DNA of 36,008 nt, taken from IMG/VR virus record IMGVR_UViG_3300032893_000184, positions 1-36,008 of that record. One strand, written 5' to 3'. Shown here one piece after another: positions 1,182-26,391 of the stretch. The position numbers and the translations under genes were made by a program. Position 1 is the stretch's first letter. The number at the start of each line of letters is the position of its first letter. This stretch comes from a virus. The notes under the pieces were generated by a model, which did not search any database, was not told the origin of the DNA, and was given only the letters and a program-made list of their open reading frames with translations.

Positions 1182-1208
1182 AACCTATCCATAATAAAAA
1201 TAAATATG
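1182..1208 (+). promoter_or_regulatory. Candidate phage promoter motif, copy 1
   Basis: AACCTATCCAT at 1182-1192 matches exactly the 11-base block found upstream of 7138 and 26476, and closely that upstream of 14005. The downstream half (ATCCC...) is not conserved here and is replaced by A-rich sequence, so this is the weakest copy. It lies about 85 bp before the first gene of the packaging operon. An imperfect stem-loop (AGTGGTT ... AATCACT, about 1224-1244) follows, as a hairpin follows each of the other copies. Confidence 0.5.
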
Positions 1209-1278
1209 ATAAAGTCCTCTTAAAGTGGTTAAAAAGTAATCACTACATGGGAAAAAAACAGCCATTTTTTACGGTGAA

Positions 1279-1716
1279 ATGGTGATGGCGGCATCAAAAT
1301 CACAACAAAATGAAAGTCCTGAAGGGCGGGAAATATCGCCGTCCACAATCGGTTTTAACGGGAGAAATCGTAATGGTACTTTTGCTAAGGGTAATCCTGG
1401 AGGAAATGGTAACCCTTATAACAAAAGAATTGCTACGCTGCGTTCAGCAGTGTTAGACGCTGTTAATGAAAATGATGTCAGAGAAATTGTTTCTACATTC
1501 AAAATGCAGGCCAAAGAAGGGGATGTTTTGGCTGCTAAATTCCTATTTTCCTATGCTATTGGAGCGCCTCTTTCTAATGAAGAAATAATGAGGATGCGCA
1601 ATGACCGTGAAGATGTGATTCGTCAATTGCCATATGCAGATCTTCTTGAATTGGCTAAAGATCTGATTGAACAAGAACAGCAAAAGAAATTGACTCCAAA
1701 AATCATTAATGTTTAA
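1279..1716 (+). CDS. DUF5681-like phage protein, candidate terminase small subunit
   Basis: 145 residues. The N-terminal third holds the signature GRNRNGTFAKGNPGGNGNPY, followed by an alpha-helical segment (LRSAVLDAVNENDVREI) and KEGDVLAAKFLF. This is the pattern of the DUF5681 family, common in phages and prophages just ahead of terminase genes. A DNA-recognition role in packaging is inferred from position: first gene of the operon that ends with the large terminase. The start is either ATG 1279 or ATG 1285 (M-V-M); the Shine-Dalgarno sequence is weak for both. A promoter-like motif lies about 85 bp upstream. A different small-terminase gene in the operon cannot be excluded. Confidence 0.75.
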   Translation: MVMAASKSQQNESPEGREISPSTIGFNGRNRNGTFAKGNPGGNGNPYNKRIATLRSAVLDAVNENDVREIVSTFKMQAKEGDVLAAKFLFSYAIGAPLSNEEIMRMRNDREDVIRQLPYADLLELAKDLIEQEQQKKLTPKIINV

Positions 1717-1726
1717 AGGATGAGAA

Positions 1727-2236
1727 ATGCTGACTAAATGGTTTTACCGGGTCTATGCGATATTAACACAAAGTAATACTGTATTTACGCCAGAGGAAGT
1801 AATCCTGGATCAGATGAAGGAGCCAAGACCTTTGCCATTGGGACGTAAGGATTTTGAAGACTGGAGCGATAGATTGATTGCAGGCGCAATGATACCTGGT
1901 GGCGAGGAAGAGCCTGAGAGATTTAAGAAAGGTCAGAAATTTGCATTGGCGGATATGATACTGCATTGCAAACCCACCGAATCTCATGTGCCGGATGCTC
2001 ATTTTATTCACAGTCTCAGGAAGATGGCGGCTAATCAAGTGGCTTTGATGATGAAGAATGAGATTCACACGGAGTTAAAGCCGGCAAAAGAAGAAAATGT
2101 TCCCTTAAAGAATGTGGTTAAAGATATGGCGAAAGAAACAGAGCTTGGAAATAAAATGCAAGAAATTCAGGCAAGTTTGGCTGCAAAAGAGAATATCGCA
2201 CAGCCTAATCTCAGTGTTGTGAAAGAGGGTATTTAA
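1727..2236 (+). CDS. Hypothetical phage protein (169 aa)
   Basis: Not recognised. The start ATG at 1727 has an AAAGGATGAG ribosome-binding site. The product is mixed alpha-helical, opens with an aromatic hydrophobic stretch (MLTKWFYRVYAIL) that is not followed by a signal cleavage site, and ends with a charged, probably coiled region (about residues 108-160). The stop overlaps the next gene's start as TAATG, so the two are likely translationally coupled. Its place in the packaging operon suggests a late or DNA-metabolism accessory role, but nothing in the sequence defines it. Confidence 0.8.
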   Translation: MLTKWFYRVYAILTQSNTVFTPEEVILDQMKEPRPLPLGRKDFEDWSDRLIAGAMIPGGEEEPERFKKGQKFALADMILHCKPTESHVPDAHFIHSLRKMAANQVALMMKNEIHTELKPAKEENVPLKNVVKDMAKETELGNKMQEIQASLAAKENIAQPNLSVVKEGI

Positions 2237-2565
2237 TGTTCAAAATAAAGACATTAGAGGTTCCTCCACATAAACTAGAAGACATTCCAGAATATAGTGA
2301 AAGTAAGCATGGTATTTGGCGAGATAGGATACGTAATCCTTCAGTAATTGCGCATAAATCCACGGCAGTGAAAATTGCAGAATGGTGTCAATCTAATCAA
2401 CCGCGCTCAGCCCTAAGCGGAGATTTGCCTCCGGATTGGGTGAAAGAAGATATAGATAAATGGTTGGCAAAACCAAGAGGCAAAGAAATATTGGCAATGA
2501 AAGTGCCTTGGCGGATATCAGCCAAAAGATATTTTCATGCTGATTTGATAGATCTGATTGGGTGA
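2236..2565 (+). CDS. Hypothetical phage protein (109 aa)
   Basis: Starts at the A shared with the previous gene's TAA. Basic and tryptophan-rich (GIWRDR, AEWC, PPDWVK, DKWLAKPRGKE, VPWRIS), without Cys pairs or membrane segments. No family recognised. It is followed after 7 bp by the next small gene. Confidence 0.75.
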   Translation: MFKIKTLEVPPHKLEDIPEYSESKHGIWRDRIRNPSVIAHKSTAVKIAEWCQSNQPRSALSGDLPPDWVKEDIDKWLAKPRGKEILAMKVPWRISAKRYFHADLIDLIG

Positions 2566-2572
2566 AAAAATA

Positions 2573-2872
2573 ATGTTATCCAGCCGCACATTTTTAGATA
2601 TCCCGCCAGCTCCTCACTATGAACAACAGATCAAGTGGGAGATCGAAGTTACTCATCCTGTTTTGACAACTAATGAGAAAATAGTAAAGTTTTGCCAAAT
2701 TGGCGGCTGTGGGACACAGGAATATAAGCCAGCTCCTGATTTACCAAAGGAATTTCTGGATTTCCTGCGAGAAACTCATGAGGCTGATAAAGAATGGGCA
2801 AGATCATGTATTGCATTAGATATAACTGAGAACTATTTCGAAAAGCGTGGAATGCTAAAGGAGAAAGCATGA
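2573..2872 (+). CDS. Hypothetical phage protein (99 aa)
   Basis: I prefer the ATG at 2573, preceded by GGGTGA with about 7-base spacing, over an in-frame TTG at 2558. The protein has a central Cys pair region (FCQIGGCGTQEY) after a beta-strand-like segment (QIKWEIEVTHPVL), then an acidic helical C-terminus. A small beta-sheet protein is plausible; the family is unknown. Its stop overlaps the next start (ATGA). Confidence 0.7.
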   Translation: MLSSRTFLDIPPAPHYEQQIKWEIEVTHPVLTTNEKIVKFCQIGGCGTQEYKPAPDLPKEFLDFLRETHEADKEWARSCIALDITENYFEKRGMLKEKA

Positions 2873-3099
2873 AATGGTTTGCATTTTCAACCTTCATTAT
2901 TGCATTGCCATTAATAATATTTACTTTGATATCATTAACTCTAATTCTCGGCGGGATAGGCTCCTCTGTGGAGGCTAAGCCAAAAGTTGATGAATTATGG
3001 CGGGTGGAAAATGATGAGATCATCTGTTATGGCCGAAAAAATCTAGGTCTCCAATGTAAATTTAAAGAAATCCCAGTCATTCCAAAGGAACAGGAATAA
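2869..3099 (+). CDS. Small membrane-anchored or exported protein (76 aa)
   Basis: The N-terminus has one Lys followed by a long hydrophobic stretch (about residues 4-32, FAFSTFIIALPLIIFTLISL then TLILGG), then SSVEAKPK, which could be a signal-peptidase site or the end of a membrane anchor. The remaining 40 residues are polar with two Cys residues (IICYGRK, LQCKFKE), consistent with a periplasmic disulfide. Coupled to the previous gene by an ATGA overlap. It could be a spanin-like or superinfection-exclusion protein; no function can be assigned. Confidence 0.7.
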   Translation: MKWFAFSTFIIALPLIIFTLISLTLILGGIGSSVEAKPKVDELWRVENDEIICYGRKNLGLQCKFKEIPVIPKEQE

Positions 3100-3107
3100 C
3101 GAAAGAT

Positions 3108-3260
3108 ATGAAGAAACGGCATAAAAAGAAGAATGCTAAAAGGGAATGGAAAGATACAAGTGCGGTATTTCAGGATAAGGTAAGAACATTGGCGGAACGG
3201 CTGGAAAAAAAACGCAAGGAGATGGTCAGTGAAAAAGGAAGCGCTGAACCAGTTAATTAG
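3108..3260 (+). CDS. Small very basic protein (50 aa)
   Basis: A short frame starting ATG AAG AAA CGG CAT. The first twelve residues (MKKRHKKKNAKR) are almost entirely basic and are followed by an amphipathic helix (VFQDKVRTLAERLEKKRKEM). It fills the gap between two operon genes with GAAAGAT ahead of the ATG, and overlaps the next gene, whose ribosome-binding site and GTG start lie inside it. A nucleic-acid-binding peptide is plausible. Moderate support only, because of its length. Confidence 0.5.
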   Translation: MKKRHKKKNAKREWKDTSAVFQDKVRTLAERLEKKRKEMVSEKGSAEPVN

Positions 3261-3663
3261 GGAATGGTATCAGATAGCCAAAGATTCTGGCTTTGAAGAC
3301 GCTGAAGAAATCACCAAAACAGGTGATATAAAGCTTAAACGATACGACTCCTTGAGGTTTAAAAAGAGAGATGATGGCCGCAAAGTGCGCGCGGTACTGC
3401 ATGACCGGGAATATTTAGATTTAGTACAAGAATATGTGAATGATCCTAACACGGAATATCGCAACAATGCGGAACGTGTCATTATGATGAAGCATGCTGA
3501 CCAATGGTTGATCAAGGATATAGTAGTTTACCTACGGAGAATGAGACTGTACAGACACCGCCATACAGTGCGGTTAGTCATCAGGAGGTATCTACATCGA
3601 TGGGGCATCAGGAACTTCACACTAGCTCAGTTGAAACGGTTAACGCAACGTACTCGATTCTAG
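3229..3663 (+). CDS. Putative HTH DNA-binding protein (144 aa)
   Basis: GTG start at 3229 with an AAGGAG ribosome-binding site 8-9 bases upstream. The C-terminal half resembles a helix-turn-helix module: a predicted helix with ADQWLIKDIVVYLRRM, a turn, then HTVRLVIRRYLHRWGIR, very rich in Arg/His. The N-terminal half is helical and charged. Small basic HTH proteins in packaging operons can be regulators or terminase small subunits, so this is an alternative candidate for the latter. Its 3' end overlaps the following acetyltransferase gene in another frame by about 64 bases. Confidence 0.65.
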   Translation: MKKEALNQLIREWYQIAKDSGFEDAEEITKTGDIKLKRYDSLRFKKRDDGRKVRAVLHDREYLDLVQEYVNDPNTEYRNNAERVIMMKHADQWLIKDIVVYLRRMRLYRHRHTVRLVIRRYLHRWGIRNFTLAQLKRLTQRTRF

Positions 3664-4055: not shown

Positions 4056-4227
4056 AGTACCAGCATGGCATATTAATTGCCCTAATTGTAATCTGAAGTT
4101 AAGGCGTTTTTGTATCATTACGCCGTGTCAAGAATGTGAGAAAAAGATGTGTAAACGATGTCTCAGTGCTTTTTATCCGACACCGGAATACCATTTCCAA
4201 TATTGTAAACCTGAAAAGAAAGAATAA
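3994..4227 (+). CDS. Cys-rich putative zinc-finger protein (77 aa)
   Basis: Contains CPNC, FC, CQEC and CKRC within about 35 residues (near 29-63), enough to bind one or two zinc ions, and ends in a basic tail. It overlaps the end of the acetyltransferase gene. The start is uncertain: TTG 3994, or TTG 4048 with GGAG upstream. It joins the next gene by a TAATG overlap. Likely a protein- or nucleic-acid-binding zinc module; family not recognised. Confidence 0.6.
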   Translation: MERLSGNFTLKKHGVLTPLDEVPAWHINCPNCNLKLRRFCIITPCQECEKKMCKRCLSAFYPTPEYHFQYCKPEKKE

Positions 4228-5456: not shown

Positions 5457-6952
5457 ATGAAGACGATGTCAGGGAAATAATCGCCGAATTACTCCGCCGT
5501 AAAGAAGAAGAGGATTCGCGCCCTGATATTTTAGAGCATACATTTGCTCAGCAAAAGAGGTTCATAACTGATCCAGCCAAGCTTAAGGCTTTATTCTGTA
5601 CACGCCGTTCAGCCAAATCCTTCACGGCTGGATTATATCTGGTCAAAGAAGCCATAGCTAATCCTGGCTGTAATTGTTTATTTGTTGGACTGACCAGAGC
5701 TTCTGCTAAAGCCATTATCTGGAAAGATATCCTGAGAGTTATAGATTCTAATTATCAGATTGGGGCTAGTTTTAATCAGTCAGAACTCACCATGACGTTT
5801 CCAAATGGCTCAGTTATCTATGTCGGCGGGATTGATGTAGATGAGTCTGAGATGTTGAAATTTCTGGGTAGGAAATACCGCCTTGCTTGCATTGACGAGG
5901 CTTCAATGTATACCATCAATCTTCACAATTTCGTGTATGGTATTCTCGCCCCCGCTATGGTTGATCCATCATTTGATAATGAGTCAGGCACGATCTGCCT
6001 TATGGGGACAGCCTCAGACTTTAGTCGTGGATTATTTTATGACATAACTCTAGGCAAAGAAGGCGGCTGGAAGCTCTTTACCTGGACCGCACATGATAAC
6101 CCTTATGTGGCGGCGAAATGGCAAGAAGCGCTGGAAAAGATCAGAACAGATCGACCAGCCTATATGGAAACCCCGCAATTTAAACAGTGGTATCTGAATG
6201 AGTGGGTAGTTGATGAAGATAAACTTGTCTACAAATTTAACGCAGAAAAGAATCTGCTGACATATGGGGATTGGCAAAATGTCTTCGCTCGCCATCATCA
6301 TGACGGCTGGTCTTTTGTACTCGGAAATGATACCGGCTGGGAGGATGCCAGCGCTTGCGTTCTCACTGCTTATCACATCCATAATCCTCATCTATATATT
6401 ATCGATAGTTACCGGCGGCAAAAAATGACCTTTGATGACCTTATCCGCAAAATTCAGGAATTTATGGCGGATGTCAATTATCCTGTTCATAGAGTTATAA
6501 TTGATGGGGCTAATAAGCAAGGGGTAGAATCCATGCGCTTTCGCAGCAATATTCCTTTTGAGTATGCTGACAAAAAAGATAAGGCGACATTTATTGAGTT
6601 GTTAAACTCAGATTTGATTGAGGGCAAGATTAAAATAGTTAATACAGAAGCAAATCGGCCATTATGGCAGGAAATGATGGCGCTAGTTTGGGTGACTGAT
6701 GGCGATAAGGTCAAGCTTCCTAAAAAAGAGCATCCTTCTCTGCAGAATCATCTCTGTGATGCCTTTCTGTATGCTTGGCGGTGTGGCTACCATTATAGCC
6801 ATACCAAGGCGATGACCAGAATTGTTAAATATAGTCCAGCTTGGTATAAAGAGCAGCAGGAAGGTATCTGGGAAAGAGAAAGAGAACATTTAGAAAAGCT
6901 CTATCAACAAACTGAATGGCCAGATCAAGGGACATTGGGGGAATTAGGATGA
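5453..6952 (+). CDS. terL: Terminase large subunit (ATPase and nuclease)
   Basis: The DNA-packaging motor, about the usual length at 499 residues. The N-terminal ATPase has the variant Walker A CTRRSAKSFT at 49-58, a strand-motif region NCLFVGLTRASA, and Walker B LACIDEA at 144-150 with the catalytic Glu. The RNase-H-like nuclease domain shows D293 in GNDTG, D351 in VIIDGA and D436 in LCDAFLYAWR, the expected acidic triad. It would dock on the portal and cut the concatemer at head filling. It is the last large gene of a long coupled operon; the start overlaps the membrane-protein stop by ATGA. Confidence 0.95.
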   Translation: MNEDDVREIIAELLRRKEEEDSRPDILEHTFAQQKRFITDPAKLKALFCTRRSAKSFTAGLYLVKEAIANPGCNCLFVGLTRASAKAIIWKDILRVIDSNYQIGASFNQSELTMTFPNGSVIYVGGIDVDESEMLKFLGRKYRLACIDEASMYTINLHNFVYGILAPAMVDPSFDNESGTICLMGTASDFSRGLFYDITLGKEGGWKLFTWTAHDNPYVAAKWQEALEKIRTDRPAYMETPQFKQWYLNEWVVDEDKLVYKFNAEKNLLTYGDWQNVFARHHHDGWSFVLGNDTGWEDASACVLTAYHIHNPHLYIIDSYRRQKMTFDDLIRKIQEFMADVNYPVHRVIIDGANKQGVESMRFRSNIPFEYADKKDKATFIELLNSDLIEGKIKIVNTEANRPLWQEMMALVWVTDGDKVKLPKKEHPSLQNHLCDAFLYAWRCGYHYSHTKAMTRIVKYSPAWYKEQQEGIWEREREHLEKLYQQTEWPDQGTLGELG

Positions 6953-7017
6953 CGATTGAAGAGATAGAGAAAAGATTTAAATCTATTTACACTTTTAAAA
7001 GTGGCGAGAATGGTTAG
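6949..7017 (+). CDS. Possible 22-aa peptide after terL
   Basis: ATGA overlap with the terminase stop and GGGGGAATTAGG just upstream, then a 22-codon frame rich in Glu, Lys and Ile (MTIEEIEKRFKSIY). It could be a coupled micropeptide or just the tail of the transcript. The remaining bases up to 7092 hold nothing else I can name. Confidence 0.25.
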   Translation: MTIEEIEKRFKSIYTFKSGENG

Positions 7018-7092
7018 TTATGCCAAGCAAAATAGTATGTACATATTGCCGTATGAGATAGTACTCTCATTACGAGAATTAGAAAAAGACTA

Positions 7093-7119
7093 AACCTATC
7101 CATCCGTATCCCTATTGAA
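7093..7119 (+). promoter_or_regulatory. Candidate phage promoter motif, copy 2
   Basis: AACCTATCCAT at 7093-7103, four variable bases, then ATCCCTATTGAA at 7108-7119. The 13895 copy keeps both blocks with the same spacing. A small stem-loop (AAAAT, GGGG, ATTTT at about 7122-7135) follows directly and ends just before the ATG at 7138, so the transcript would have a very short leader. It heads the head-gene block. No sigma70 -35/-10 pair is evident here, which favours a dedicated phage promoter or activator site. Confidence 0.6.
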
Positions 7120-7137
7120 TCAAAATGGGGATTTTCC

Positions 7138-7371
7138 ATGACATTGCCATTTATGAAAAACAAAGAAGGCGGTATGGCTGGCCCAATTGAGGTCAAGGAA
7201 CGTGAGCCAGACCATGAAGAATACGAGCTTTTAGACGCCGTGGCGGAAGACATCATGGCGGCGATAGAAGGTAAGAATCATGCCATGCTCAAAGAAGCCC
7301 TCGAAGCTCTCTGTGAATACATCAAAGAAGAAGACGAACAGCAAGATCAAGATTTAATGGAAATGGATTAA
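7138..7371 (+). CDS. Small acidic phage protein (77 aa)
   Basis: First gene after promoter motif 2. Starts MTLPFMKNKEGGMAGPIEV and continues as an acidic helical protein (LLDAVAEDIMAAIEGKNHAMLKEALEAL) ending in a Glu/Asp-rich tail. Similar small acidic proteins sit between terminase and portal genes in many podovirus-like genomes; the role is unknown. The Shine-Dalgarno sequence is weak (TGGGGA). Confidence 0.75.
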   Translation: MTLPFMKNKEGGMAGPIEVKEREPDHEEYELLDAVAEDIMAAIEGKNHAMLKEALEALCEYIKEEDEQQDQDLMEMD

Positions 7372-7393
7372 ACAATATATACAGGATTGAAAA

Positions 7394-8146
7394 ATGACTA
7401 ATGCATTGAGTCTAATTGCTAGCACGCCAGTAGGTGGCTTGGGAACGCAGGCCATTACTCTTCCTACTACTTCTTTGTGGACAATGACTTGTCAAAGCTT
7501 TTTGCCATATTTCCCCGCCGGAACTCCTGCGCAATCAACATCTGTTGCTAACAATGCGCAGCAAATAACTGCCGTTGCTGATTCAAGCGGAAGTTTAAAT
7601 AGCACTTTCTTTACCTTCTATGTAACGGGAAACGCATACGGCTATTATGTATGGTATAATATTAACTCCGCTGGAGTTGACCCAGCCCCGGCCGGCTTGA
7701 CTGGTATTCAAGTGACAGCTGCGACCAATGCTACTGCAAACACGATAGCAGGTAATACCAGAACGGCAATCACAGCCGCAGTTCCTTATGTCACAATAAG
7801 CGGAACTACCAGCCATGTTATTATTACGCAAAATTTCTATGGTGCGGTAACAGCAGCAGCGGATGGCACGGCTGCAACAGGATTCACATTTGCCGCGTCA
7901 AGCCCAGCGGGAACGTTTGGTACACCGCCAGCATCTGGATTGGTAATCCAGCTTTACCATGGTACTACGCTTCTTACTACGTCTTCATTTCCAACTCCTA
8001 CGCAACCAATGTTAAGTGCATCGGCTACGTTTTCAGCAACGGCGGGAGATGCGGCATCTGTTGTTCTTTCATCGCTTTCAACAGCTGATTCAGCTCCTAA
8101 TGCAATTAAATCTATTATGAATATTTTCCAAGGTCCAGCAGTCTAG
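7394..8146 (+). CDS. Putative virion decoration/structural protein (250 aa)
   Basis: Low in charged residues and rich in Ala, Thr, Ser and Gly, typical of beta-structured virion surface proteins. The middle section (FFTFYVTGNAYGYYVWYNIN, then DPAPAGLTGIQV) resembles a module seen in phage decoration and tail proteins, repeated in style by later fibre genes here. No charged linker or enzyme motif is seen. Its place between the terminase and portal genes suggests a head-surface or neck component; this is inference. Confidence 0.65.
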   Translation: MTNALSLIASTPVGGLGTQAITLPTTSLWTMTCQSFLPYFPAGTPAQSTSVANNAQQITAVADSSGSLNSTFFTFYVTGNAYGYYVWYNINSAGVDPAPAGLTGIQVTAATNATANTIAGNTRTAITAAVPYVTISGTTSHVIITQNFYGAVTAAADGTAATGFTFAASSPAGTFGTPPASGLVIQLYHGTTLLTTSSFPTPTQPMLSASATFSATAGDAASVVLSSLSTADSAPNAIKSIMNIFQGPAV

Positions 8147-8155: not shown

Positions 8156-8827
8156 ATGCCTTTAATCGTAGGTAAAAGCCCTGCCTCATTTGGCAAAAAT
8201 GTAAGTACCGAGATGCATGCCGGTAAGCCACAAAAGCAAAGTCTGGCCATCGCATATGCTATGAAACGCAAAGCACAAAAAGAACATAAGGCCCATGGCG
8301 GTTTTGTAGAAGAAGAAAAAGCATCAGGATATGCAAACTGTCCACACTGTATGGCAAAAGGCGGGATGTGTGAAAAGCACATGGCAGCTGGTGGATTTGT
8401 CGAGGAAGAAAAAGCATCTGGCTGGGATGAATTTGATCATCCTGGCAAGAAAATGAACATGGCTGCCGAACATGAGTCTGAACATGAAGACATGATGCAC
8501 CATGAAGAAGATGAAGATGAAGATCTAGATATGGTGGACCGCATCATGCGCCAGCGCATGTCTCATGGCGGTATGATGCGAAAAGGCTATTCTGAAGGCG
8601 GCAGAGTAGCTAATAGAACAATGGATGAAGAAGATGAGTTTGAGCCTAATGAGTTTGATGACATGGTCAAAGATAATCATCTAGATCCAGAGTATCACGA
8701 TAATGAAGAAATTGGCGATGAACAAGAAGATGAAGATCGCCATGACATCATAAGTCGCATTATGCGCTCTCGTAGATTAAAAGCTGGGCATTATCCAAAA
8801 ACAGGACAACCAGGATACCCTGAGTGA
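8156..8827 (+). CDS. Phage protein with duplicated GGFVEEEKASG motif (223 aa)
   Basis: The N-terminus (KSPASFGKNVSTEMHAGKPQ then KQSLAIAYAMKRKA) matches a short segment common in phage head-gene regions. Two copies of GGFVEEEKASG follow (residues about 48-58 and 79-89), with CPHC and a further Cys/His-rich stretch (GGMCEKHM) between them that could hold zinc. The rest is extremely acidic, with two similar helices (DMVDRIMRQRM and DIISRIMRSRR). A packaged or portal-associated accessory protein is plausible. GGAG ribosome-binding site; GTGA overlap with the next gene. Confidence 0.75.
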   Translation: MPLIVGKSPASFGKNVSTEMHAGKPQKQSLAIAYAMKRKAQKEHKAHGGFVEEEKASGYANCPHCMAKGGMCEKHMAAGGFVEEEKASGWDEFDHPGKKMNMAAEHESEHEDMMHHEEDEDEDLDMVDRIMRQRMSHGGMMRKGYSEGGRVANRTMDEEDEFEPNEFDDMVKDNHLDPEYHDNEEIGDEQEDEDRHDIISRIMRSRRLKAGHYPKTGQPGYPE

Positions 8828-10961: not shown

Positions 10962-11834
10962 ATGAAAATTAGTTCTGTAGGTCCTGGAAGTCACCAGGTT
11001 CCAAATGTTCTTAACCAATCTGGTCAGATCGCACCATCCAGTGTAGCCACATACAAGATGAAGATGAATACTCAGGCTACTCCTGGTTTTGCTGAACAGA
11101 CTATCCAGCAAAGTCAACTAGAAAATGTATCCACAAATGTCCTTAATGAAACTGAAAATAGGCCCAAAGAAGAAGTCAGGCCTATGAGCCCTCAGTTAGC
11201 CGCCCTAGCAAAGCAAAGGCGGGCTCTGCAGATAAAGGAAAGGGAGCTTAGAGCCAAAGAGCAAGCGCTGGCTACATCCGGCCAAGATGTAGTTAGTTTG
11301 GCTGATCTGAAGACTAAGCCGCTGAAGGTTCTGCTAGACCATGGCGTTACATATGATCAGCTAACCCAAGAAATTTTAGCTAATCAGAATAATGCAGAGG
11401 TTGCTGCTTTAAAGCAAGAAATCGCGGAACAAAAGAATTGGGTTATGGCTCAACTGGAAGAGCGCGAGAAACAAGCAGAGCAGCAAGCTTTAGCTCAAAT
11501 GCGAGCCGATGCTATGGCCTTAGCCAGGCAAGGTGATGAATTTGAGTTAGTCAGAGAAACAAGAAGAATCCCTGATGTGGTCCGGTTAATTGAAAAGACT
11601 TATCGACAAACAGGAGAAGTCCTGGATGTGCGAGAAGCTTTACAGTTAGTTGAAAATGAGCTTTTAAAAGACGCTCAAAAAATGGCCAGTTTCAATAAGT
11701 TAAAGGGGCAATTTGGCCAGGAGCAGCCCCCGGTGCAGACACAGCCGATGCGCACTTTAACAAGTAAACACACGGCGCAGCCTCTGATTGACAGAAAGGC
11801 GCGAGCACTAGCGGCATTCCGAGGAATGCTTTAA
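10962..11834 (+). CDS. Putative scaffolding protein
   Basis: Located directly between portal and capsid genes, where scaffold genes usually lie. 290 residues, highly charged, with long predicted coiled coils (about 75-105 around KQRRALQIKERELRAKEQAL, and about 145-190) and a basic C-terminal tail (LIDRKARALAAFRGML) of the sort that contacts capsid protein. Disordered, Gln/Thr-rich N-terminus. AGGAG ribosome-binding site. Assignment rests on position and helical character, not on a family signature. Confidence 0.75.
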   Translation: MKISSVGPGSHQVPNVLNQSGQIAPSSVATYKMKMNTQATPGFAEQTIQQSQLENVSTNVLNETENRPKEEVRPMSPQLAALAKQRRALQIKERELRAKEQALATSGQDVVSLADLKTKPLKVLLDHGVTYDQLTQEILANQNNAEVAALKQEIAEQKNWVMAQLEEREKQAEQQALAQMRADAMALARQGDEFELVRETRRIPDVVRLIEKTYRQTGEVLDVREALQLVENELLKDAQKMASFNKLKGQFGQEQPPVQTQPMRTLTSKHTAQPLIDRKARALAAFRGML

Positions 11835-11850: not shown

Positions 11851-13158
11851 ATGGCTATATCACCGGTATATGCCAATAGCTCAAACCAGCTTGCGGCATT
11901 AAAAGAGCTTTATACGGATGATAAGGATTACATGAAAAATATCGTGTATTCCAAGAATCCATTGTTGGCGTTAGTTCCAAAAAATGAGAGTCCAGATGGT
12001 TTTGCTGGTAAGTATATTCCTGTGCCTCTGGAATATGGCAACCCACAAGGTCGTGCGCATACATTCGCCAATGCTCAAAATCAGCAAACGGCAACGGATG
12101 TTGTGAGCTACTTTGTATATGCCATTCAAGATTATCAATTGGTAACCATCACGAACCTTTTGATGGAGCAAACCAAGTCTAATGCCGGTGCATTTGTTGA
12201 TGAAGCATCACGTGTATTGGACAATGGTTTTAGAAACCTTTCTAATAACATGGCCTTTGAGTTGTTCTATGGTGGAACGGCAAGTCGTGGTCAAATTAGC
12301 TCGGCAGGAGTTTCATATTCCGCTCCGACATTGACCTTTACACTTTCTAATTCCCAGCAAGTTGTCCAGTTTGAAGTTGGTATGACCCTTCAAGCTTCGG
12401 CAACGGATGGTGGGGCGGCATTGCAAAACACCCCTGGCACTATTGATGCTATTCAGATCACTAGTGTTAACCGTGGGACTGGTGTTATCAGCGGTACGGT
12501 AGTTCAAGGCGCTCCTCAATCTTCTTGGGGCGCAAGTGACTATCTCCAAGTTCTCGGGGATATCGGTATCGGTGGATCCTCCACTATTGCCGGTATGCTT
12601 GGTATGTCTGGCTTGGCGGCATGGGTTCCTAATACAGATCCGCCTTCGACAGATAACTTCTGGGGAGTAAATAGATCAGCTGACCCTACACGTCTTGGTG
12701 GTCTTCGCTATAATGCTTCGGCGCAATCAATCTCTGAAGGGATTACGAATGCATTAGCATTTGGTAACCGAGAAGGTGCAAGCTTTGACCTTATCGTAAT
12801 TGACTTTGTAAGTTACTCTACATTGATCAATGAACTAGGGGCCAAGGTACAATACGTGATGCTTGAGCACGATGAAGTAGAAGTGGCATTTGAAGCAATT
12901 CATTTCCATTCTGCTTATGGCAAGATTCCAGTTCTTGCTGACCGTTCGTGCCAATCACAAACGGCTTGGTGTTTAACAATGGATACGTGGAAATTGCGTA
13001 CGCTTGGAAAAGCACCGCACATTCTTACGTATGGCATAGAAGGATTGGAGGGCTTGAGGATTGGGAATGCTGATGCGCTAGAAATTCGTATCGCATACTA
13101 CGGCAACCTTATATGCAGCGCACCAGGCTACAACATGCAAGTTGCATTGTCTGCATAA
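11851..13158 (+). CDS. Major capsid protein
   Basis: 435 residues. The N-terminal half has a segment typical of phage coat proteins (KYIPVPLEYG, then long helices QDYQLVTITNLLMEQTKSNA and FRNLSNNMAFELFYGG), followed by a beta-rich insertion (about 145-235) and a C-terminal region ending GNADALEIRIAYYGNLICSA. The HK97 fold is assumed from family knowledge. It has a strong AAAGGA ribosome-binding site and is followed within 45 bp by a strong terminator, as expected for the most abundantly made virion protein. Confidence 0.9.
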   Translation: MAISPVYANSSNQLAALKELYTDDKDYMKNIVYSKNPLLALVPKNESPDGFAGKYIPVPLEYGNPQGRAHTFANAQNQQTATDVVSYFVYAIQDYQLVTITNLLMEQTKSNAGAFVDEASRVLDNGFRNLSNNMAFELFYGGTASRGQISSAGVSYSAPTLTFTLSNSQQVVQFEVGMTLQASATDGGAALQNTPGTIDAIQITSVNRGTGVISGTVVQGAPQSSWGASDYLQVLGDIGIGGSSTIAGMLGMSGLAAWVPNTDPPSTDNFWGVNRSADPTRLGGLRYNASAQSISEGITNALAFGNREGASFDLIVIDFVSYSTLINELGAKVQYVMLEHDEVEVAFEAIHFHSAYGKIPVLADRSCQSQTAWCLTMDTWKLRTLGKAPHILTYGIEGLEGLRIGNADALEIRIAYYGNLICSAPGYNMQVALSA

Positions 13159-13199
13159 TCAGGTTACAAGAACATAGTTGTGGCAACACAGCGTGTGGG

Positions 13200-13239
13200 A
13201 AGGCGGTAGAATAAAAAAACTACCGCCTTTTTCTCTTTT
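13200..13239 (+). terminator. Rho-independent terminator after the capsid gene
   Basis: Perfect 10-bp stem, AAGGCGGTAG paired with CTACCGCCTT, around a 10-base A-rich loop, followed by a T-rich tract (TTTCTCTTTT). It would limit transcription beyond the head genes. Confidence 0.92.
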
Positions 13240-13251
13240 AAAGAGGGGAAA

Positions 13252-13482
13252 ATGACTATTCTCGGCGGGATGGATTGTCCAGATTGTAAAAATGATTTGC
13301 ATATTGCAAATAGAAATTATGAAGATCAAAAAGACTGGTCATTATTCTGTCCAGATTGTGCAAAAGATTTAGGAAAGGGGACATATTGGCTGCATTATGG
13401 CGGCAAAACCCCAGAAGAAGGTTATAAAATAGCCGCCGCCCATTTTGGTTGGGATGAGGATGTCGAACAAAATGAAAGTTAA
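13252..13482 (+). CDS. Small zinc-ribbon protein (76 aa)
   Basis: Two CPDC motifs (CPDCKNDL at about 9-16 and CPDCAKDL at about 33-40) separated by 20 residues form a classical zinc ribbon; the rest is acidic with aromatic residues (YWLHYGG, HFGWDED). The start has AGAGGGG upstream. It lies just after the capsid terminator without a recognisable promoter of its own, so it should be expressed by read-through. It overlaps the next gene by 11 bases. The function is unknown; it may bind protein or nucleic acid. Confidence 0.75.
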   Translation: MTILGGMDCPDCKNDLHIANRNYEDQKDWSLFCPDCAKDLGKGTYWLHYGGKTPEEGYKIAAAHFGWDEDVEQNES

Positions 13483-13825
13483 AGAATATCTATTTGTCTA
13501 TGGCAGCCTTCGGCCAAGTGAAGATCCGCCAAAGAGCATGACTGATCCAGAATCTGACTGGATAAATGGCGATGAAATACAAAAGGAATCCCGCCATCAC
13601 CACCATTGGGCGGAAGTGCGGTTACATGATGGCCATGATTTAAAAATAAAAGGTTATACTATGCTGATAGATGCTAATGAATTGTCAGACCTTGATAAAA
13701 GAGAGGCGCCAGAATATCGCCGAATTAGAGTCACCACTCATAATCGCCATGTGGCTTGGGTTTATGAATATGTTCCGGCGCATAATCGGCCAAAAGCTGG
13801 AAAGACCTTTTCAGTTAGTCATTAA
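13472..13825 (+). CDS. Gamma-glutamylcyclotransferase-like (AIG2/GGCT) protein
   Basis: The family signature YLFVYGSLRP lies at residues 6-15 of the 117-residue product and forms the substrate-binding loop. The general acid/base Glu is expected in LDKREAPEYRRI, the usual (L)D..E...Y.R pattern. These enzymes cleave gamma-glutamyl amines or peptides to 5-oxoproline. A HHHHW cluster at about 40-44 is unusual. The start at 13472 puts the conserved motif at the normal distance; an earlier ATG at 13460 is possible. The gene is enclosed with the zinc-ribbon gene between two terminators, which suggests a mobile accessory (moron-like) unit. Its physiological target in infection is unknown. Confidence 0.8.
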   Translation: MKVKEYLFVYGSLRPSEDPPKSMTDPESDWINGDEIQKESRHHHHWAEVRLHDGHDLKIKGYTMLIDANELSDLDKREAPEYRRIRVTTHNRHVAWVYEYVPAHNRPKAGKTFSVSH

Positions 13826-13857
13826 TTTTATAAATTGAATCATCCCAGGTCTCTGCA

Positions 13858-13895
13858 AGTAAGGCCAGATTTTAAATCTGGCCTTACTGTTTTTT
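13858..13895 (+). terminator. Strong rho-independent terminator
   Basis: A 15-base perfect inverted repeat (AGTAAGGCCAGATTT and its complement, separated by one T; the real loop would be larger) followed by six T residues at 13890-13895. The near-perfect symmetry means it could also work in the opposite direction. It abuts candidate promoter motif 3, so one transcription block ends where the next begins. Confidence 0.93.
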
Positions 13896-13921
13896 ATCTA
13901 TCCATAACAATCCCTATTGAA
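13895..13921 (+). promoter_or_regulatory. Candidate phage promoter motif, copy 3
   Basis: TATCTATCCAT (9 of 11 to the common block), four variable bases, then ATCCCTATTGAA at 13910-13921, identical over 12 bases to copy 2 with the same spacing. It begins at the last T of the terminator. A stem-loop follows at once (GACAAAA ... TTTTGTC, 13922-13938). It heads the tail/ejection block starting at 14005. The terminator-promoter junction is the best positional support for calling this a promoter. Confidence 0.65.
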
Positions 13922-14004
13922 GACAAAACGTTTTTGTCATACTGGCGCGCAAGTGAGCGAGGGCTACGCGCAGAGAAATACCTTGCCATCTTTGGAGATA
14001 GCCA

Positions 14005-14721
14005 ATGTCAGTAGCTCGCGGTTTCGGTCTAAATGGAAAATCCCTTTATACAAACATCGCAAAACCCATGGAAGTATGGTGTAACTTCATTGTTGACCAT
14101 TCCAATGGAAATGGTCTCGGTATTCGTTCACTGAAAAGTAACGGCTATATCGAGTATGTTTTTATGAATACTTCTGCCACTCCTGGCGTGGTGAATGGGT
14201 ATACTAATCCCAACCCACAAGCGGGATTTGCATTAGTTAAGTTTAAAAATAATTTCAATTATTATCTTGGCGGATTTTCTGGTCAGATTGTCCCACTTAC
14301 GAGCACAAGCACTACCTCGTTGACGGCAGGTCATGTTTATGTAATTACCAGTCTTGGCAATAGTACAACGGCTAACTGGCAAACGGCTGGAGTACTGCCT
14401 GGTTTTACGCCAGCAGTAGGAACGGCTTTTGTTTCGTTAATTACTGGATCTATCACGGGATCCGGAACAGTAGGGATTCCTGGCGTGGCATCCGCGACAG
14501 TGCTCAACATTGTTGGGGATCCTAATTTGACTATTGCTAATTCAAATATTGCATCAAACGCAGGCGCGTTCCAAATAGTCCAGTTCTCAGCTCCCACTAA
14601 CTCATCCACTACGACGCTTGTTGCTGCGGCACCTGCTGATGGAACAGTAATTGGTATGCAATTTTGTTTTGACGGTTCTACTGTGTCAATTCCAGATGCT
14701 GTAGGAGGAACAGGACTATAA
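14005..14721 (+). CDS. Putative structural protein (238 aa)
   Basis: First gene after promoter motif 3, GGAGA ribosome-binding site. Rich in Gly, Thr, Ser, Asn and Ala with few charged residues. A central module (TAGHVYVITSLGNSTTANWQ ... GTAFVSLITGSITGSGTV) is a repeat-type beta module found in other phage virion proteins. A decoration, neck or tail surface role is inferred from composition and from the adaptor gene that follows. Confidence 0.65.
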   Translation: MSVARGFGLNGKSLYTNIAKPMEVWCNFIVDHSNGNGLGIRSLKSNGYIEYVFMNTSATPGVVNGYTNPNPQAGFALVKFKNNFNYYLGGFSGQIVPLTSTSTTSLTAGHVYVITSLGNSTTANWQTAGVLPGFTPAVGTAFVSLITGSITGSGTVGIPGVASATVLNIVGDPNLTIANSNIASNAGAFQIVQFSAPTNSSTTTLVAAAPADGTVIGMQFCFDGSTVSIPDAVGGTGL

Positions 14722-14722
14722 A

Positions 14723-15781
14723 ATGGCAATTCCTTATCAGCCTCAGAATCCCGCGGCTGAACAGGCTGATGGGAATATATTAATCACTTGGACCCCAGCA
14801 CTGGGTGCTACTGGATATATTATCCAGCGCTCAACGGATGGGATCAATTTTAGTACGCTAGCCACTGTTGGGCAAGTTATTCAGTATCAGGATAGCTTGC
14901 CTGGCATTGGTATAATGTATTACTATCAGATCGCCGCGACGAATGTTTCAGGCACAAGCCCCTATTCCTCAATAGTACAGATGGTCGCGGCACCTCCCGC
15001 TGAAATGAGCCTTTACGAATTAAGGCTGCGATCACAACAAACGGCCAACCGGGAAAATGATAATTTCGTTACAACGCCAGAGTGGAATGCATTTATCAGA
15101 TTGGCGATGTACGAATTATATGATCTTTTAATCACATCCTATGAAGACTACGGCGCGAGTAGTATTGTCTACATAAATACGAATGGTACAACAAGTCTTT
15201 ATCCGTTACCGGATGGTGCAACAAACTATTTCGGCGGCCAGTATCCAAGTATTGGCACAAGTGATCCCGCGCCGGCCTTTTATAAATTGGCGGGTATAGA
15301 CCTGGGAATAAATACAAGCAATAATGCATGGGTGACATTACTCAAGTTCGACTTTATTGAGCGTAATAAATATGTATATCCAAACTCCACATCTACGATC
15401 TATGGCGTGTATAATATGCGTTATAGGCTCATGGATGGCAACTTATTCATTATTCCAACACCTGCTGGTAATCAACAGCTAAGGTTTTGGTATGCTCCAA
15501 GGTTACCTGCTCTTTTACAGGATCAGAACACGACGAATATTGGTATATCGGGGTGGCTCAGATACGTGATTGTGCGGTCAGCCAAATATGCATTGAATAA
15601 AGAAGAGGGTACGGACGCCGCACATTTAGATGCTGAGCTGTTATTCTTGAAACAAAGAATCGAGCAAGCTGCTCAGAATCGAGACTATGGTGTGGCTGAT
15701 ACCATTTCTAACACAAGAGTTGATCCGCTCTATGGCGGTAACGGTTTTGCGTCGGGCGGTGGCGGAAACGCTGGATGGTAA
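14723..15781 (+). CDS. Head-tail adaptor with N-terminal fibronectin type III domain
   Basis: Residues about 1-90 read as an FN3 domain: NILITWTPALGATGYIIQRS, TDGINFSTLATV and YYYQIAATNVSGTSPYS, the W, Y and terminal strand pattern of that fold. From about residue 95 (MSLYELRLRSQQTANREN, then FVTTPEWNAFIRLAMYELYD) the sequence looks like the adaptor proteins that sit under podovirus portals, with a C-terminal helical section and a Gly-rich tail. FN3 domains are common on virion surfaces; fusion to an adaptor would place one at the neck. The two-domain reading is inference from sequence pattern. Confidence 0.75.
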   Translation: MAIPYQPQNPAAEQADGNILITWTPALGATGYIIQRSTDGINFSTLATVGQVIQYQDSLPGIGIMYYYQIAATNVSGTSPYSSIVQMVAAPPAEMSLYELRLRSQQTANRENDNFVTTPEWNAFIRLAMYELYDLLITSYEDYGASSIVYINTNGTTSLYPLPDGATNYFGGQYPSIGTSDPAPAFYKLAGIDLGINTSNNAWVTLLKFDFIERNKYVYPNSTSTIYGVYNMRYRLMDGNLFIIPTPAGNQQLRFWYAPRLPALLQDQNTTNIGISGWLRYVIVRSAKYALNKEEGTDAAHLDAELLFLKQRIEQAAQNRDYGVADTISNTRVDPLYGGNGFASGGGGNAGW

Positions 15782-17095: not shown

Positions 17096-20000
17096 ATGAA
17101 ACCATTTAAACAAGCGATAGATATTTCATTTGCCAAAGGTTTGGATACCAAGACAGATCCAAAACGGCTTTCTATTGGCAATTTTCTAGCGCTTAATAAT
17201 ATGGTTTTTACGAAAGGACAACAGCTTACAAAACGCAATGGATACCAACAACTATCAACCTTGCCAAATACCAGTTACTCATATCTCACGACATATCGCG
17301 ACAACTTAACGGCAATTGGGACTAATATTGCCGCCTATAATGAGACTAATGCTCAATGGGTCCAGAAAGGAAATATCCAGCCCCTTAGTCTTTTTACGCA
17401 ACCGGTACTTAGAAATAACTACAATCAAACAGTTGGCGATAGTGCGGTTGCCTCAAATGGCCTGGTTTGTACCGCATATTTAGAGAATCAAGGTGGATCC
17501 ATAGTTAACAAATATGTTATAGAAGATTCAGTGACAGGTCAGGTGATAGTTGCCCCAGCAGTTATTCCTGTGGCAAGTGGCACCGTTTCTGGCGGTATGC
17601 GAGTATTTGTTCTTGGCCAGTCATTTGTAATCGTATTTACAAACACGATTAGTGCCACCGCACATTTACAATATGTGGCCATAAGTATTCAAAATCCGTC
17701 AACCATTAGTGCCAATACTGATATTGCAAGTTCTTATATTTCCGCAACTACCCTTTCATGGGATGGATTTGTAGCTGACAATATACTTTATATTTCCTGG
17801 AATACCACATCAGGCGGCCAATCCGTCAAAATAACATATATTACGTCCGCCTTTGTCATTGCTACACCGGTTACTTTATCTGGCTATAAAAGCACGATGA
17901 CTAGCCTCACGGCAGATGTAACTGGAACAATGCCAGTTATATATCTTAGTTTTTATAATAGTAGTGCCAGTACTGGCTTTACTGCGGTGTTCAATGCTCA
18001 ATTGAATCTCATTCTTAATCCAATTGAGATAATTTCCAGCACTACGGTACTAAATCTCACGTCCGCGGCCCAAAATGGGGTTTGTTCTATATTCTATGAA
18101 GTTTCGAACGCCTATAGCTATGATTCAGGCATTCCCACAAACTATATAAATGGCGTAACGGTGACGCCTCTTGGCACGACATTCCATTCAGTCTTCAGCT
18201 CAGGAGCTGGTACTATTACCGCCTCTTCAGCCACTGGACTGGTAAATGGCATGCATCTTGTGGATAACACCACATCCGGTAATATTGCAGCTGGAACCAC
18301 TTTTACTATTTCAGGAACTACTTTAACATTATCAGCTAATACTGCTGGAAATTCCGCAAGTAGTCCTGGCGACTCTATGGCGGCGGCAACTGTTGGCTCA
18401 ACTGTTACGATTATTCGAAGTGTTGGACTAGCTTCCAAAGCTTTTATTATAAACGGCGTGATCTATTTCCTCTCCGCTTATCAAAGCACTTATCAGCCGA
18501 CTTATTTTGTTATTAATGGCTCAGTAAGTACGCAGGCAATGCCGGTAGTAACTGCCAAAATGGCATATCAAAATGGCGGTGGCTATTTAACGACAGGTCT
18601 TCCTGGCGTAACAGTTAATGGAACTACGGCCTGGATGCCTTATTTATTTAAAGATTTACTTGCAGCTGTTAATAAGGGCACGAATGTGCCAGCTGGTACT
18701 CAAACCGCGGGAGTATATAGCCAGACTGGAGTGAATTTAGCCAAAATCATTTTTGGCACACAAATGTTGGATACTGCGGAAATTGGCAATGATTTGCATC
18801 TTTCTGGCGGATTTCTTTGGATGTATGATGGCCAGATACCAGTTGAGCACAATTTCCTGCTATGGCCCGATATGGATACTACTACAACAACTGACGCGGC
18901 CAGTTGGTCTGCGAGCGGCGGCAGTATGGTCGCTAAACCAGATGGCAGTACGAATACCAATGCATATTATTACCAAGTAACTTATGAGTGGACGGATAAT
19001 CAGGGCAATGCATTTAGATCAGCTCCTTCAATACCTATTCCAGTTACTACTACAGGTTCTGGTTCTAGTGGCTCTGTTACTCTTAACATTCCGACTCTTA
19101 GATTGACTTACAAGATCGCGAGTCCAGTTAAGATTGTCATTTACCGCTGGAGTGTTGGCCAACAGATTTATTATCAGACTACTAGTATTACATCGCCACT
19201 TCTCAATGATACGACCACGGATCAAGTCCAATTTGTTGACACGAACTCAGATGCCACTATTTTAGGTAATAATATTATCTACACAAATGGCGGTGTCGTT
19301 GAGGATATAAATGCTCCGGCCAGCAACATCATGGCACTTTTTGATACCAGGCTCTGGCTTGTGGATGCAGAAGACCGGAATCTTCTCTGGTATTCCAAAC
19401 AGGTTATTGAAGCCACGCCAGTAGAGATGTCAGACCTATTTACTTTCTATATCCCGCCGACTACGGCGACGGAGACATCCAGCGGGAATATTGGCGCATT
19501 ATTCCCAATGGATGATAAACTTATCATTTTTAAAGAAAACTCAGCCATTTACTATATAAATGGCACCGGACCAGACAATACTGGGGCAAATAATAACTAT
19601 TCCCAGCCAATTTTCATAACGTCTACGATTGGCTGTTCTAATCAAAATAGTATTGTGCTTATCCCAATGGGCCTCATGTTCCAAAGCAATAAGGGTATTT
19701 GGCTACTTGGACGGGATCTGTCGACTACTTATATTGGAGCACCTGTAGAGCAGTATAATAGCGCGATTGTGGAAAGTGCAGATGCCATTCCAGGCACAAA
19801 TCAAGTGCGGTTTATACTAAATAATGGCATTACTCTCATGTATGACTATTATTATGGACAATGGGGCACTTTTTCAGGCGTTCCTGGAGTTTCTGCGTGT
19901 ATTTATCAGCAGCTTCATACATTTATTAATGCTCAAGGCGGAGTATTTCAGGAAAATGTGGGCTCGTACCTTGATGGCTCTAACCCTGTTCTTATGTCTT

Positions 20001-20838: not shown

Positions 20839-20839
20839 A

Positions 20840-23909: not shown

Positions 23910-25816
23910 TGGCAGCTGGACCGTGTGAAAATCCTGATTGTCATAGCTATGGCAAAGCGCATCCCAACTGCGAATGCTATTTACGCATGGCTGGCGGTGG
24001 TGAAGCTACATTTGATCCAGACGCATTTTTAAAAGAAGGACAACCGGCTCCAGCGCCGGCGCAGCCAGCATTTGATCCAGATGCATTTCTTAAGGCAAAT
24101 ACAAAACCAGCATTTGATCCGGATGCATTTTTAAATAAGCCTGATTATTCCACACCATTACAGCAAGCAGCTACGATTGCCGAAGGCGCAGCGCAGGGAG
24201 TGCCGGGAGTTGGTCCAGCCGTTACAGCGGCGGAGCTTCAATTATCAAAATTAGGTGTGCCAGGAACCAGCGCAGAAGATATAAATGCGAGGGCTGCAGC
24301 TAATCCTTATGAGCACGATATATCTAAAGGTGCTACGGCCATCGGTTCAACATTGGCAGCGACCGCGGGATTATCAGCGCTAGGAACAGCGGCGACAAAT
24401 GCAGCGTTGCAAGGAAGTGATGAAGCGACTAATTACCTTCTAGGTAATCAAGATAAAAACGCACCTGTTGCATCAGCATTAGCCCATATTGGTGCCGCCG
24501 GATTATTCGGTGGTCTTGTAAGTAAAGCAGGAAGTTTGGCATCAGGAAAATTGGCATCAATTGCTAATGAGAATATCGGATCGAAATTTGCGCCATGGCT
24601 TGAAGGAGCTATTACCGCTGCAAATGGCCAACCAATTAATGCTCTTTCCGAAGAAGCAAATATCGCGGATAAGATAGCAGGTCATAACTTTTATAATAGT
24701 TTGACAGCAGGCTTAATTCCCCATGCAACTGGTATAGTTGGAGCTACTGAAGGTGGTATAAGAGGATATCAGGAAAATGGGGTGCCTGGTGCGGTAACTG
24801 GAGCGATTAAAGGTGGCGCAGAAGGAGCATTAGCTGGCTGGGTTGGCAAGAACGTAATTGGGAAAATATCGAGCACTTTGGGAAAAAATGCTGTTGCGCC
24901 ATTTTTAGCAAAAATCGCTAGTTCTGGTACTATGGAAGGATTAGGAGATGCGGTTAATTATGCTACTAGTGTTAGCCAAGGTCTTGGCAAAGTAAATGCC
25001 GCGATTGATGGATTAGTTGGCGCGACAGCAACTATTCCACAACAATATGTAAGCGATAAAGAAAGAGAATTTAATCGGCAACAAGTAAAAGATTACTTGG
25101 ATAATGGCGGTATTCAACAAAATATCAACCAAACCATAGAGAATATGAACCAAGCCAATCTAGAGCCCCAACTTTATGCTGGCGGCGGATTAGTGGAACA
25201 TATGCCACAGCCGCAGACAAGCCAAGGCGAGCCATTTATTAAAGAAAATGATGGGATGAATATCCATTTCCCAGAGCAAAATGCTTTGCTTGGGTCCGCA
25301 AAAATGCGCATTAGCAACTATTTATCAAATCTTAAGCCGAATAAAACAGTGCCAAAACTGCTATATGATGAAGCGCCGGATACCAGCAGTCAAGAAAAGA
25401 TTTATAATCGCGCCATAGATATCGCCAATGATCCATTGTCAATATTATCAGACGCTAAAAAAGGAATGCTTGAACCGCAAGACGTTCAGCATTTTAATAG
25501 TATGTATCCGGAAGTGTCGAATTTGGTGCAACAAAAGCTAACTCAGAAGATGGTGAAAAGTGCAGCAGAGAATAAACGACCACCCTATCATGTGCGTCAG
25601 AGTCTCTCCTTGCTCTTGGGGACTCCGCTCTCGGGGGAACTTACGCCTTCATATATACAAGCCGCTCAGAGAGTGTTTATGGCTGCTCAGCCACAGCCAC
25701 AGCCGCAACAGCAGCCGCCAACTAAGCCTAAAAAATCTACGGCACCACTTAAAAATAGTTCTAACCAATATATGACTCCTCAGCAGTCAAGAATTGCAGC
25801 TGAAAGCAAATCCTAA
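23909..25816 (+). CDS. Putative ejection protein 3 with FDPDAFL triple repeat (635 aa)
   Basis: The N-terminus carries CENPDCHSYGKAHPNCECYL (residues 5-24), four Cys and two His that could bind zinc. FDPDAFLK or FDPDAFLN then occurs three times at about 36, 56 and 69. The centre (about 85-370) alternates Gly/Ala-rich hydrophobic segments (GVPGAVTGAIKGGAEGALAG) consistent with membrane penetration; the C-terminal 200 residues are helical with a Pro/Gln-rich tail. Being third of three comparable genes supports an ejection role. Its stop lies within the 3' end of the convergent minus-strand gene. Confidence 0.7.
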   Translation: MAAGPCENPDCHSYGKAHPNCECYLRMAGGGEATFDPDAFLKEGQPAPAPAQPAFDPDAFLKANTKPAFDPDAFLNKPDYSTPLQQAATIAEGAAQGVPGVGPAVTAAELQLSKLGVPGTSAEDINARAAANPYEHDISKGATAIGSTLAATAGLSALGTAATNAALQGSDEATNYLLGNQDKNAPVASALAHIGAAGLFGGLVSKAGSLASGKLASIANENIGSKFAPWLEGAITAANGQPINALSEEANIADKIAGHNFYNSLTAGLIPHATGIVGATEGGIRGYQENGVPGAVTGAIKGGAEGALAGWVGKNVIGKISSTLGKNAVAPFLAKIASSGTMEGLGDAVNYATSVSQGLGKVNAAIDGLVGATATIPQQYVSDKEREFNRQQVKDYLDNGGIQQNINQTIENMNQANLEPQLYAGGGLVEHMPQPQTSQGEPFIKENDGMNIHFPEQNALLGSAKMRISNYLSNLKPNKTVPKLLYDEAPDTSSQEKIYNRAIDIANDPLSILSDAKKGMLEPQDVQHFNSMYPEVSNLVQQKLTQKMVKSAAENKRPPYHVRQSLSLLLGTPLSGELTPSYIQAAQRVFMAAQPQPQPQQQPPTKPKKSTAPLKNSSNQYMTPQQSRIAAESKS

Positions 25817-25992
25817 AGAAGGCCTACTGATTGGAGAAAGTTTAAAAGGTGATGTTCCCAGCCAATACACCACATAACGAATGCGTGCAAATAATGACTT
25901 TGCATCATGAAGAATTGTATCATTGCGCCAAAAACCATAACATATGGTATGATTTTAATTCGTTCTTTAAACGTCACTTGTTGGCGTTCCAT
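25813..25992 (-). CDS. Small membrane protein, 59 aa
   Basis: Minus-strand frame starting ATG GAA CGC CAA with AGGAG five bases upstream. The product begins MERQQVTFKERIK (charged), then a hydrophobic helix of about 17 residues (IIPYVMVFGAMIQFFMM) and a second moderately hydrophobic stretch (LHAFVMWCIGW). The stop overlaps by 4 bp the stop of the plus-strand ejection gene, so the genes converge. It follows 8 bp after the 104-aa gene and is cotranscribed with it. A holin, antiholin or membrane-exclusion protein are possibilities; no signature decides. Confidence 0.6.
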   Translation of the reverse strand: MERQQVTFKERIKIIPYVMVFGAMIQFFMMQSHYLHAFVMWCIGWEHHLLNFLQSVGLL

Positions 25993-26000
25993 AGATACTC

Positions 26001-26315
26001 CTAATCCATGCTCAAGATGCGATAATTATAAGAGAACACGATCCGATGCATCTGAGAATTAAGTTTCACCAAAAAGACGTGGTGAACATAATCCGGTTGA
26101 CAAGTGCTGCTGTAATGAAAACAACCGTCTGTATTATTAGCCGATCCATCAAAATTCCGGTTATTTACTGCAAAATGCTCGCTATCCCAAAGAAGCTGTT
26201 TTTCATCATGAGTTAGTTCGCTGTAATAAACTCCAACTTGGAACGATTTGTCAACTTTTGGAGTAGCGTCGAGTACTGGACTGAATAGCACTATATTTAA
26301 GATTGTAACCCACAT
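26001..26315 (-). CDS. Putative exported small protein (104 aa)
   Basis: Strong ribosome-binding site (AAGGAGG, 8-9 bases before the ATG). The N-terminus MWVTILNIVLFSPVLDATPK is hydrophobic and may be a signal peptide with cleavage near Ala-Thr, although it lacks the usual basic residues. The rest is polar, with two Cys (DGCFHYSSTCQPDY) suited to a periplasmic disulfide, and aromatic-rich. It runs against all surrounding structural genes and has its own promoter-like leader, shared with the gene at 30030-30221. The function is unknown; a lysogenic or early accessory role would fit its orientation. Confidence 0.7.
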   Translation of the reverse strand: MWVTILNIVLFSPVLDATPKVDKSFQVGVYYSELTHDEKQLLWDSEHFAVNNRNFDGSANNTDGCFHYSSTCQPDYVHHVFLVKLNSQMHRIVFSYNYRILSMD

Positions 26316-26322
26316 AGCCCTT

Positions 26323-26364
26323 CCTCCTTATATATGACTTATCGGGCTTCTGGCTATAAACTTT
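26323..26364 (-). promoter_or_regulatory. Minus-strand promoter/leader, copy A
   Basis: Read on the minus strand: TTAAAG, 17 bases, GATAAG, then the AAGGAGG ribosome-binding site of the 104-aa gene. It shares with the leader at 30227-30268 the elements AAAGTT, GCC, CCGATAAGT and TATAAGGAGG at nearly identical spacing. The -35/-10 spacing of 17 suits a sigma70-type promoter, although the hexamers are weak. It abuts plus-strand motif copy 4 (26365), so this 70-bp segment is a divergent promoter region. Confidence 0.55.
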
Positions 26365-26391
26365 AACCTATCCATATTTATCCCAGATAAC
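26365..26391 (+). promoter_or_regulatory. Candidate phage promoter motif, copy 4
   Basis: AACCTATCCAT at 26365-26375 is identical to copies 1 and 2. After four variable bases, ATCCC at 26380-26384 is kept, then the sequence diverges (AGATAA). It heads the tail-fibre block whose first gene starts at 26476. Confidence 0.6.

Follow-up and report, generated by a model that had tools for sequence, protein, structure and literature searches.

The window analysed here is a whole virus record of 36,008 bases, and searches for terminase and capsid relatives yielded well over 100 loci, all from uncultured viruses, which share its gene order. Nine contigs with terminal repeats of 20–127 bases (33–39 kb) were treated as complete genomes, the cases with 20 and 23 bases being less sure; the relative G006 is circular and complete. 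The portal protein matches P22/SPP1 portal models, and tblastn of the portal and capsid proteins against 50,697 phage records returned no match. A search of genome_contigs for hosts with a capsid relative found none, and a literature search found nothing published on this phage family.

The plus strand carries a repeated element, which an initial annotation had proposed as a phage-specific late promoter in four copies. The 27-bp pattern is exact at 7093–7119 and has 2 mismatches at 13895–13921 (0 expected, 100 shuffles), and the first block AACCTATCCAT occurs without mismatch at 1182, 7093 and 26365, the last of which also keeps ATCCC; these are the four copies as annotated. When the window was scored on both strands with a 26-mer taken from the 13896 site, at least 19 of 26 matches were found at three places (13896, 7094 and 11125) versus 0.07 expected, so the list of copies was incomplete, as 11125 had been missed. 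The scores were 17/26 at 26366 (2.9 expected at 17 or more) and 15/26 at 1183.

Site 1 (AACCTATCCATCCGTATCCCTATTGAA, 7093–7119), a late promoter-like element after the terminase gene, agrees with site 2 in 21 of 26 bases. Site M (ATGTATCCACAAATGTCCTTAATGAA, 11125–11150, 19/26) lies inside a gene before the MCP gene, in ORF 10962–11834, and at both places relatives have their own motif. Site 2 (TATCTATCCATAACAATCCCTATTGAA, 13895–13921) follows the MCP block, and directly upstream of it is an intrinsic terminator of 14 pairs (13858–13888, plus strand), as annotated. Site 3 (AACCTATCCATATTTATCCCAGATAAC, 26365–26391), before the distal tail block, has a weaker downstream half; because its 26-mer score is only 17/26, the evidence for it, taken alone, is the exact first block together with synteny. 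The copy at 1182–1192 is doubtful: with 15/26 it stands alone on the exact 11-mer only, and it is without a counterpart in relatives. The four copies are correctly oriented in gaps between plus-strand genes, as had been stated, but the element is also intragenic, at 11125. No sigma70-type pair (TTGACA and TATAAT at 16–18 bp) was found at any of the four, in agreement with the annotation, and a position weight matrix of 34 genomes shows no TATAAT.

The element and its leader RNA across relatives

An exact scan of viral contigs with the 27-bp pattern, a search that the annotation had suggested, gave nothing because the motif is genome-specific: relatives have it at the same syntenic positions, with a different sequence in each genome. 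Each genome's own 26-mer recurs downstream of the terminase gene, within the gene that precedes the capsid gene, ahead of 14005 and ahead of the 26428/29101 block. A further copy precedes 20440 in some genomes, and some contigs have no second motif site. In nearly all close relatives, the homologue of gene 14005 is preceded by a block that mostly ends in C(C)AT and lies about 13 nt ahead of GA(A/G) (GAR), with a block-to-GAR distance that differs by 1–2 nt in some genomes. The summed score with a genome's own motif versus motifs permuted between genomes was 364 versus 277 ± 6.7 at site 1, 630 versus 500 ± 8.2 at site M and 307 versus 236 ± 6.1 at site 3, a drop of more than 10 SD at each of the three site types. 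Two distant genomes repeat the arrangement with motifs unrelated in sequence (AAACAACCAAT and TTAATTAAACAAT): the complete G034 has its motif at four of these places with 23, 21, 19 and 17 of 23 matches (0.1 expected for scores of 17 and above), and in G035 the same four places reach 22, 19, 18 and 17 of 22.

The motif is real and not a product of chance. It is kept in the same places in about 30 relatives, including a clade whose capsid protein is only about 60–65% identical, and the element is therefore functional; this conservation at block boundaries supports the annotated view of a phage-specific late promoter-like element. Along the motif, agreement at positions -21 to -15 is 0.89–0.98 within genomes versus 0.28–0.71 between genomes and within-genome agreement is high again at -9/-8, while the last bases before GAR are not fixed within genomes; picking sites by overall similarity lifts all within-genome values and should not create this profile.

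In close relatives, site 2 is followed by a hairpin that begins at GAR and then by a pseudoknot. In the window, this 5' leader of gene 14005 (13919–14004, plus strand) consists of hairpin P1 (13922–13928 with 13932–13938), stem P2 (13945–13949 with 13967–13971), pseudoknot stem P3 (helix 2, 13957–13962 with 13981–13986) and then a ribosome-binding site. P2 and P3 are paired in 94% and 90% of cells, with both-side changes in 5/5 and 6/7 pairs, respectively. Together, 91.9% of their cells are paired versus 58.7% in shuffles and 38–45% when slid, and 122 cells versus 34.9 are changed on both sides. P1 also covaries: its first pair is G-C in 38/38 sequences, and compensatory changes are seen in the others. 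The two purines that flank it, the R of GAR and the one following P1, are the same base in every sequence (A.A in 17, G.G in 21), pointing to a non-canonical pair; for these counts, anchors were chosen by best pairing and not by R identity, and the alignment requiring equal R was not used.

Since P1 pairing begins at GAR, a transcript with this fold contains GAR and has its 5' end there or further upstream, and a start at or near GA(A/G) would fit. At site 3, the first 40 nt fold with a lower energy than shuffles do (mean z -1.9, n 14), with a smaller drop at sites 1 and M, in support of the stem-loops annotated near presumed transcript starts. The leader resembles structured mRNA leaders of Rfam in that its ribosome-binding site is preceded by a hairpin and a pseudoknot; it differs in that none of Rfam 15 matches it at E up to 1, and it is a well-supported structured RNA absent from that collection.

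A small helix-turn-helix protein as candidate reader

Among the conserved small genes upstream of the terminase gene, ORF 3229–3663 (plus strand) stands out. It encodes a 144-aa helix-turn-helix (HTH) protein, the best candidate for the factor reading the element, and the annotated placement of such a factor outside the window is not supported. HMM matches to its family were found in 36 assembled records, plus further loci, and the protein is fast-evolving, being only 18–38% identical to relatives. The HTH is seen in a profile match to DesR (E 5e-4) and also in the structure model (pLDDT 85.5; residues 41–60 of low confidence), where it is C-terminal as in Q proteins. Two of 31 family members match Sigma70_r4_2 (best E 8e-4), and the structural matches are a sigma54 chain (Z 7.0) and GerE/TraR/RcsB (about 5.5); the Sigma70_r4_2 and sigma54 matches are both within the range of the common HTH arrangement, and the structural matches of the model do not decide its family. 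Foldseek with the model gave no confident match, and a Q protein is absent from the Foldseek and VIA rows, by which a 21Q-like fold with an N-terminal ring segment is not excluded.

The spelling of the motif appears to change together with this protein. Full-length Mantel tests of motif against protein were not significant, and whole-protein similarity barely tracks the motif (rho 0.07–0.14). When shifts are allowed, motif similarity does correlate with the HTH part of the protein (rho 0.19, p 0.0085) and shows no correlation with the N-terminal half; of about 16 windows, the one where the recognition helix begins gave the strongest correlation (rho 0.25, p 0.0005). Four recognition residues against five block positions gave a partial Mantel value of 0.26 (p 0.005) given six control proteins, by which phylogeny is corrected for, the four residues having been picked after the alignment was seen. 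For this reason, predictions were noted before L060 and L114/L162 were inspected.

Within this correspondence, HRET goes with the block CGCCAT, HRQT/HKQT with GTGCCAT, GTGTCAT or GTGCCTT, and CRNT/CRTT with TGA(G/A)CAT. The prior predictions held for L060 (HRET, CCGCCAT) and for L114/L162 (RYRRT, TAG(C)(A/C)CCA), and by the same table CRNA of L186/L189 agreed with TGAGCAT; at site 1 of L114/L162 and in L186, the predicted block was only tied for best among 19 blocks. The check comprises these three lineages, with L019, L020 and L176 left out. The rule is incomplete: the window's own RHRHT resembles the HRET/HRQT proteins and its block is different, and G003 and G006 have the same block with different residues. 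One complete genome, G002, is without the HTH protein, and the repeated motif was not found there either; at its site 2, TGCTATAAT ends 6 nt before GAA, without a -35, in what is a single lineage. From this comparison, the small HTH protein probably reads the motif. The matched protein and site pairs of about 25 lineages form a natural data set, in which an HTH factor and its 3–5 sites change specificity together.

Late transcription and alternative explanations

We consider it reasonably probable that the sites are late promoters of an uncultured tailed-phage family, to which the HTH factor of ORF 3229–3663 directs the host RNA polymerase. The motif would be the recognition part of these promoters; the factor, made from the genes upstream of the terminase gene, would bind the block of its lineage some 21 to 15 bp before the transcript start and make another contact, lineage-specific as well, at about -9 to -7; the host polymerase would thereby be made to initiate at GA(A/G) or close to it. 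In this way, the blocks for packaging, capsid and tail and the distal block could be turned on together from 3–5 sites, and as factor and sites would evolve together, each lineage would have a private late-promoter code. An activator at -21 to -15 would be unusual, since it would occupy the place of the polymerase. A bolder form, which we regard as doubtful, is that proteins of the 3229 family form a new class of phage transcription-initiation factors, which by themselves bring the host polymerase to a compact -21/-8 promoter lacking -35/-10 and have a readable recognition-helix-to-DNA code diversified across dozens of lineages. Late promoters of T4 with gp55, and other phage sigma factors, likewise combine a short element lacking a -35 with a small phage factor and the host polymerase; here, the element is further upstream and differs between relatives.

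Of the mechanisms found in the literature, the Q family is by analogy the closest. Phage 21 Q, AlpA and GafZ have in common with the candidate factor a small protein, a C-terminal (sigma-region-4-like) HTH and a short late-promoter element; 21Q contacts -21 and -13, the 6-bp AlpA element starts at -25, and both these and the GafZ element lie between -35 and -10 (PMC6606751, PMC9371919, PMC11150451). If the HTH protein were an antiterminator of this type, the block would sit between the -35 and -10 of weak sigma70 promoters, from which the protein would load onto paused host polymerase and pass terminators. The late blocks do contain terminators, two contact blocks spaced by about one turn are a feature of the motif as well, and Q proteins, which are small, are mutually unrelated in sequence. 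The genomes studied here instead have 3–5 sites, some directly after terminators, rather than one, with lineage-specific spelling; Q proteins are also missing among the Foldseek matches, with the above reservation on the fold. Because of the missing -35/-10 and the several sites, we did not file the factor under the Q family, and we rate this alternative as unlikely. Repeated sites and an HTH protein would also suit a repressor that binds the block as an operator and holds late genes off until needed. This seems distinctly improbable, since such operators would overlap ordinary promoters, of which none is seen at the sites, and since G002, which has no HTH protein, has a consensus -10 instead.

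The hairpins after the sites, and above all the strong leader RNA at site 2, could mean that the repeats are RNA elements, i.e., antitermination or processing signals in a read-through transcript, and not promoters. At site 2, the block directly follows the U-tract of the terminator, site M is within coding sequence, and the block covaries with an HTH, a domain that as a rule reads DNA, which leaves this explanation very little probability. Still less is left for a T7-type single-subunit RNA polymerase, one of the factors that the annotation had envisaged. The element does resemble T7/SP6-type promoters in being compact, repeated, lineage-specific in its core, placed against terminators and followed by a GAR start, and its downstream half, GAYA..TAT|GAAG, is similar to the SP6 promoter. 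Against this, the complete G006 has no unassigned gene over 331 aa, all its larger ORFs being homologues of structural or packaging genes, and the block-to-GAR spacing is not constant. A PF00940 search of 39 records gave no match and its control was also silent, for which reason ORF size is the stronger argument. The large tail protein at 17096 was weighed as a possible hidden polymerase. Comparing its profile with PDB chains gave no match, a result that speaks neither for nor against this, but the protein is conserved as part of the tail block. The T7-type reading is nearly refuted, and use of the host polymerase with the HTH factor appears the better reading of the comparison. For a family without a relative in the searched phage records, a late regulon would thereby be revealed by comparison alone, with its probable regulator identified.

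Further features of the genomes

In many relatives, the MCP gene is split into 2–5 pieces by inserts of about 140–800 nt that contain stop codons. The insertion points recur (following residues near 57–63, 104–115 and 343–357), and the pieces stay highly similar. Such genes are present in L097 4711–6498 (G006), L005/G003 12773–14737, L006/G004 8290–8484, G025 5467–7606 and some 12 others. Like group I introns, the inserts contain stretches similar to GACTAAGTGAGAA...GATAGTCTGA, and the G003 insert has a gene for an endonuclease-VII/HNH-like protein; no intron family was found for the inserts in Rfam. The terminase gene of L019 (4210–6444) is interrupted by an intein-like stretch (Hint-like and HNH-like), and in L012 (5861–6013), L186, L189 and L194 tRNA-like genes are placed between the terminase gene and the one that follows it, close to site 1.

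At 32509–32713, the window has a tandem array rich in inverted repeats, with GATCGTGTCAATTTGACATGATC units, inside the minus-strand replication-initiator ORF 32085–33074, possibly replication-origin iterons. An Rfam match to MIR4371, far below the gathering score and within the tandem repeat 32596–32689, was judged to be chance. ORF 26868–27983 contains a 161-nt direct repeat (27139–27533), the copies of which are 74% identical.
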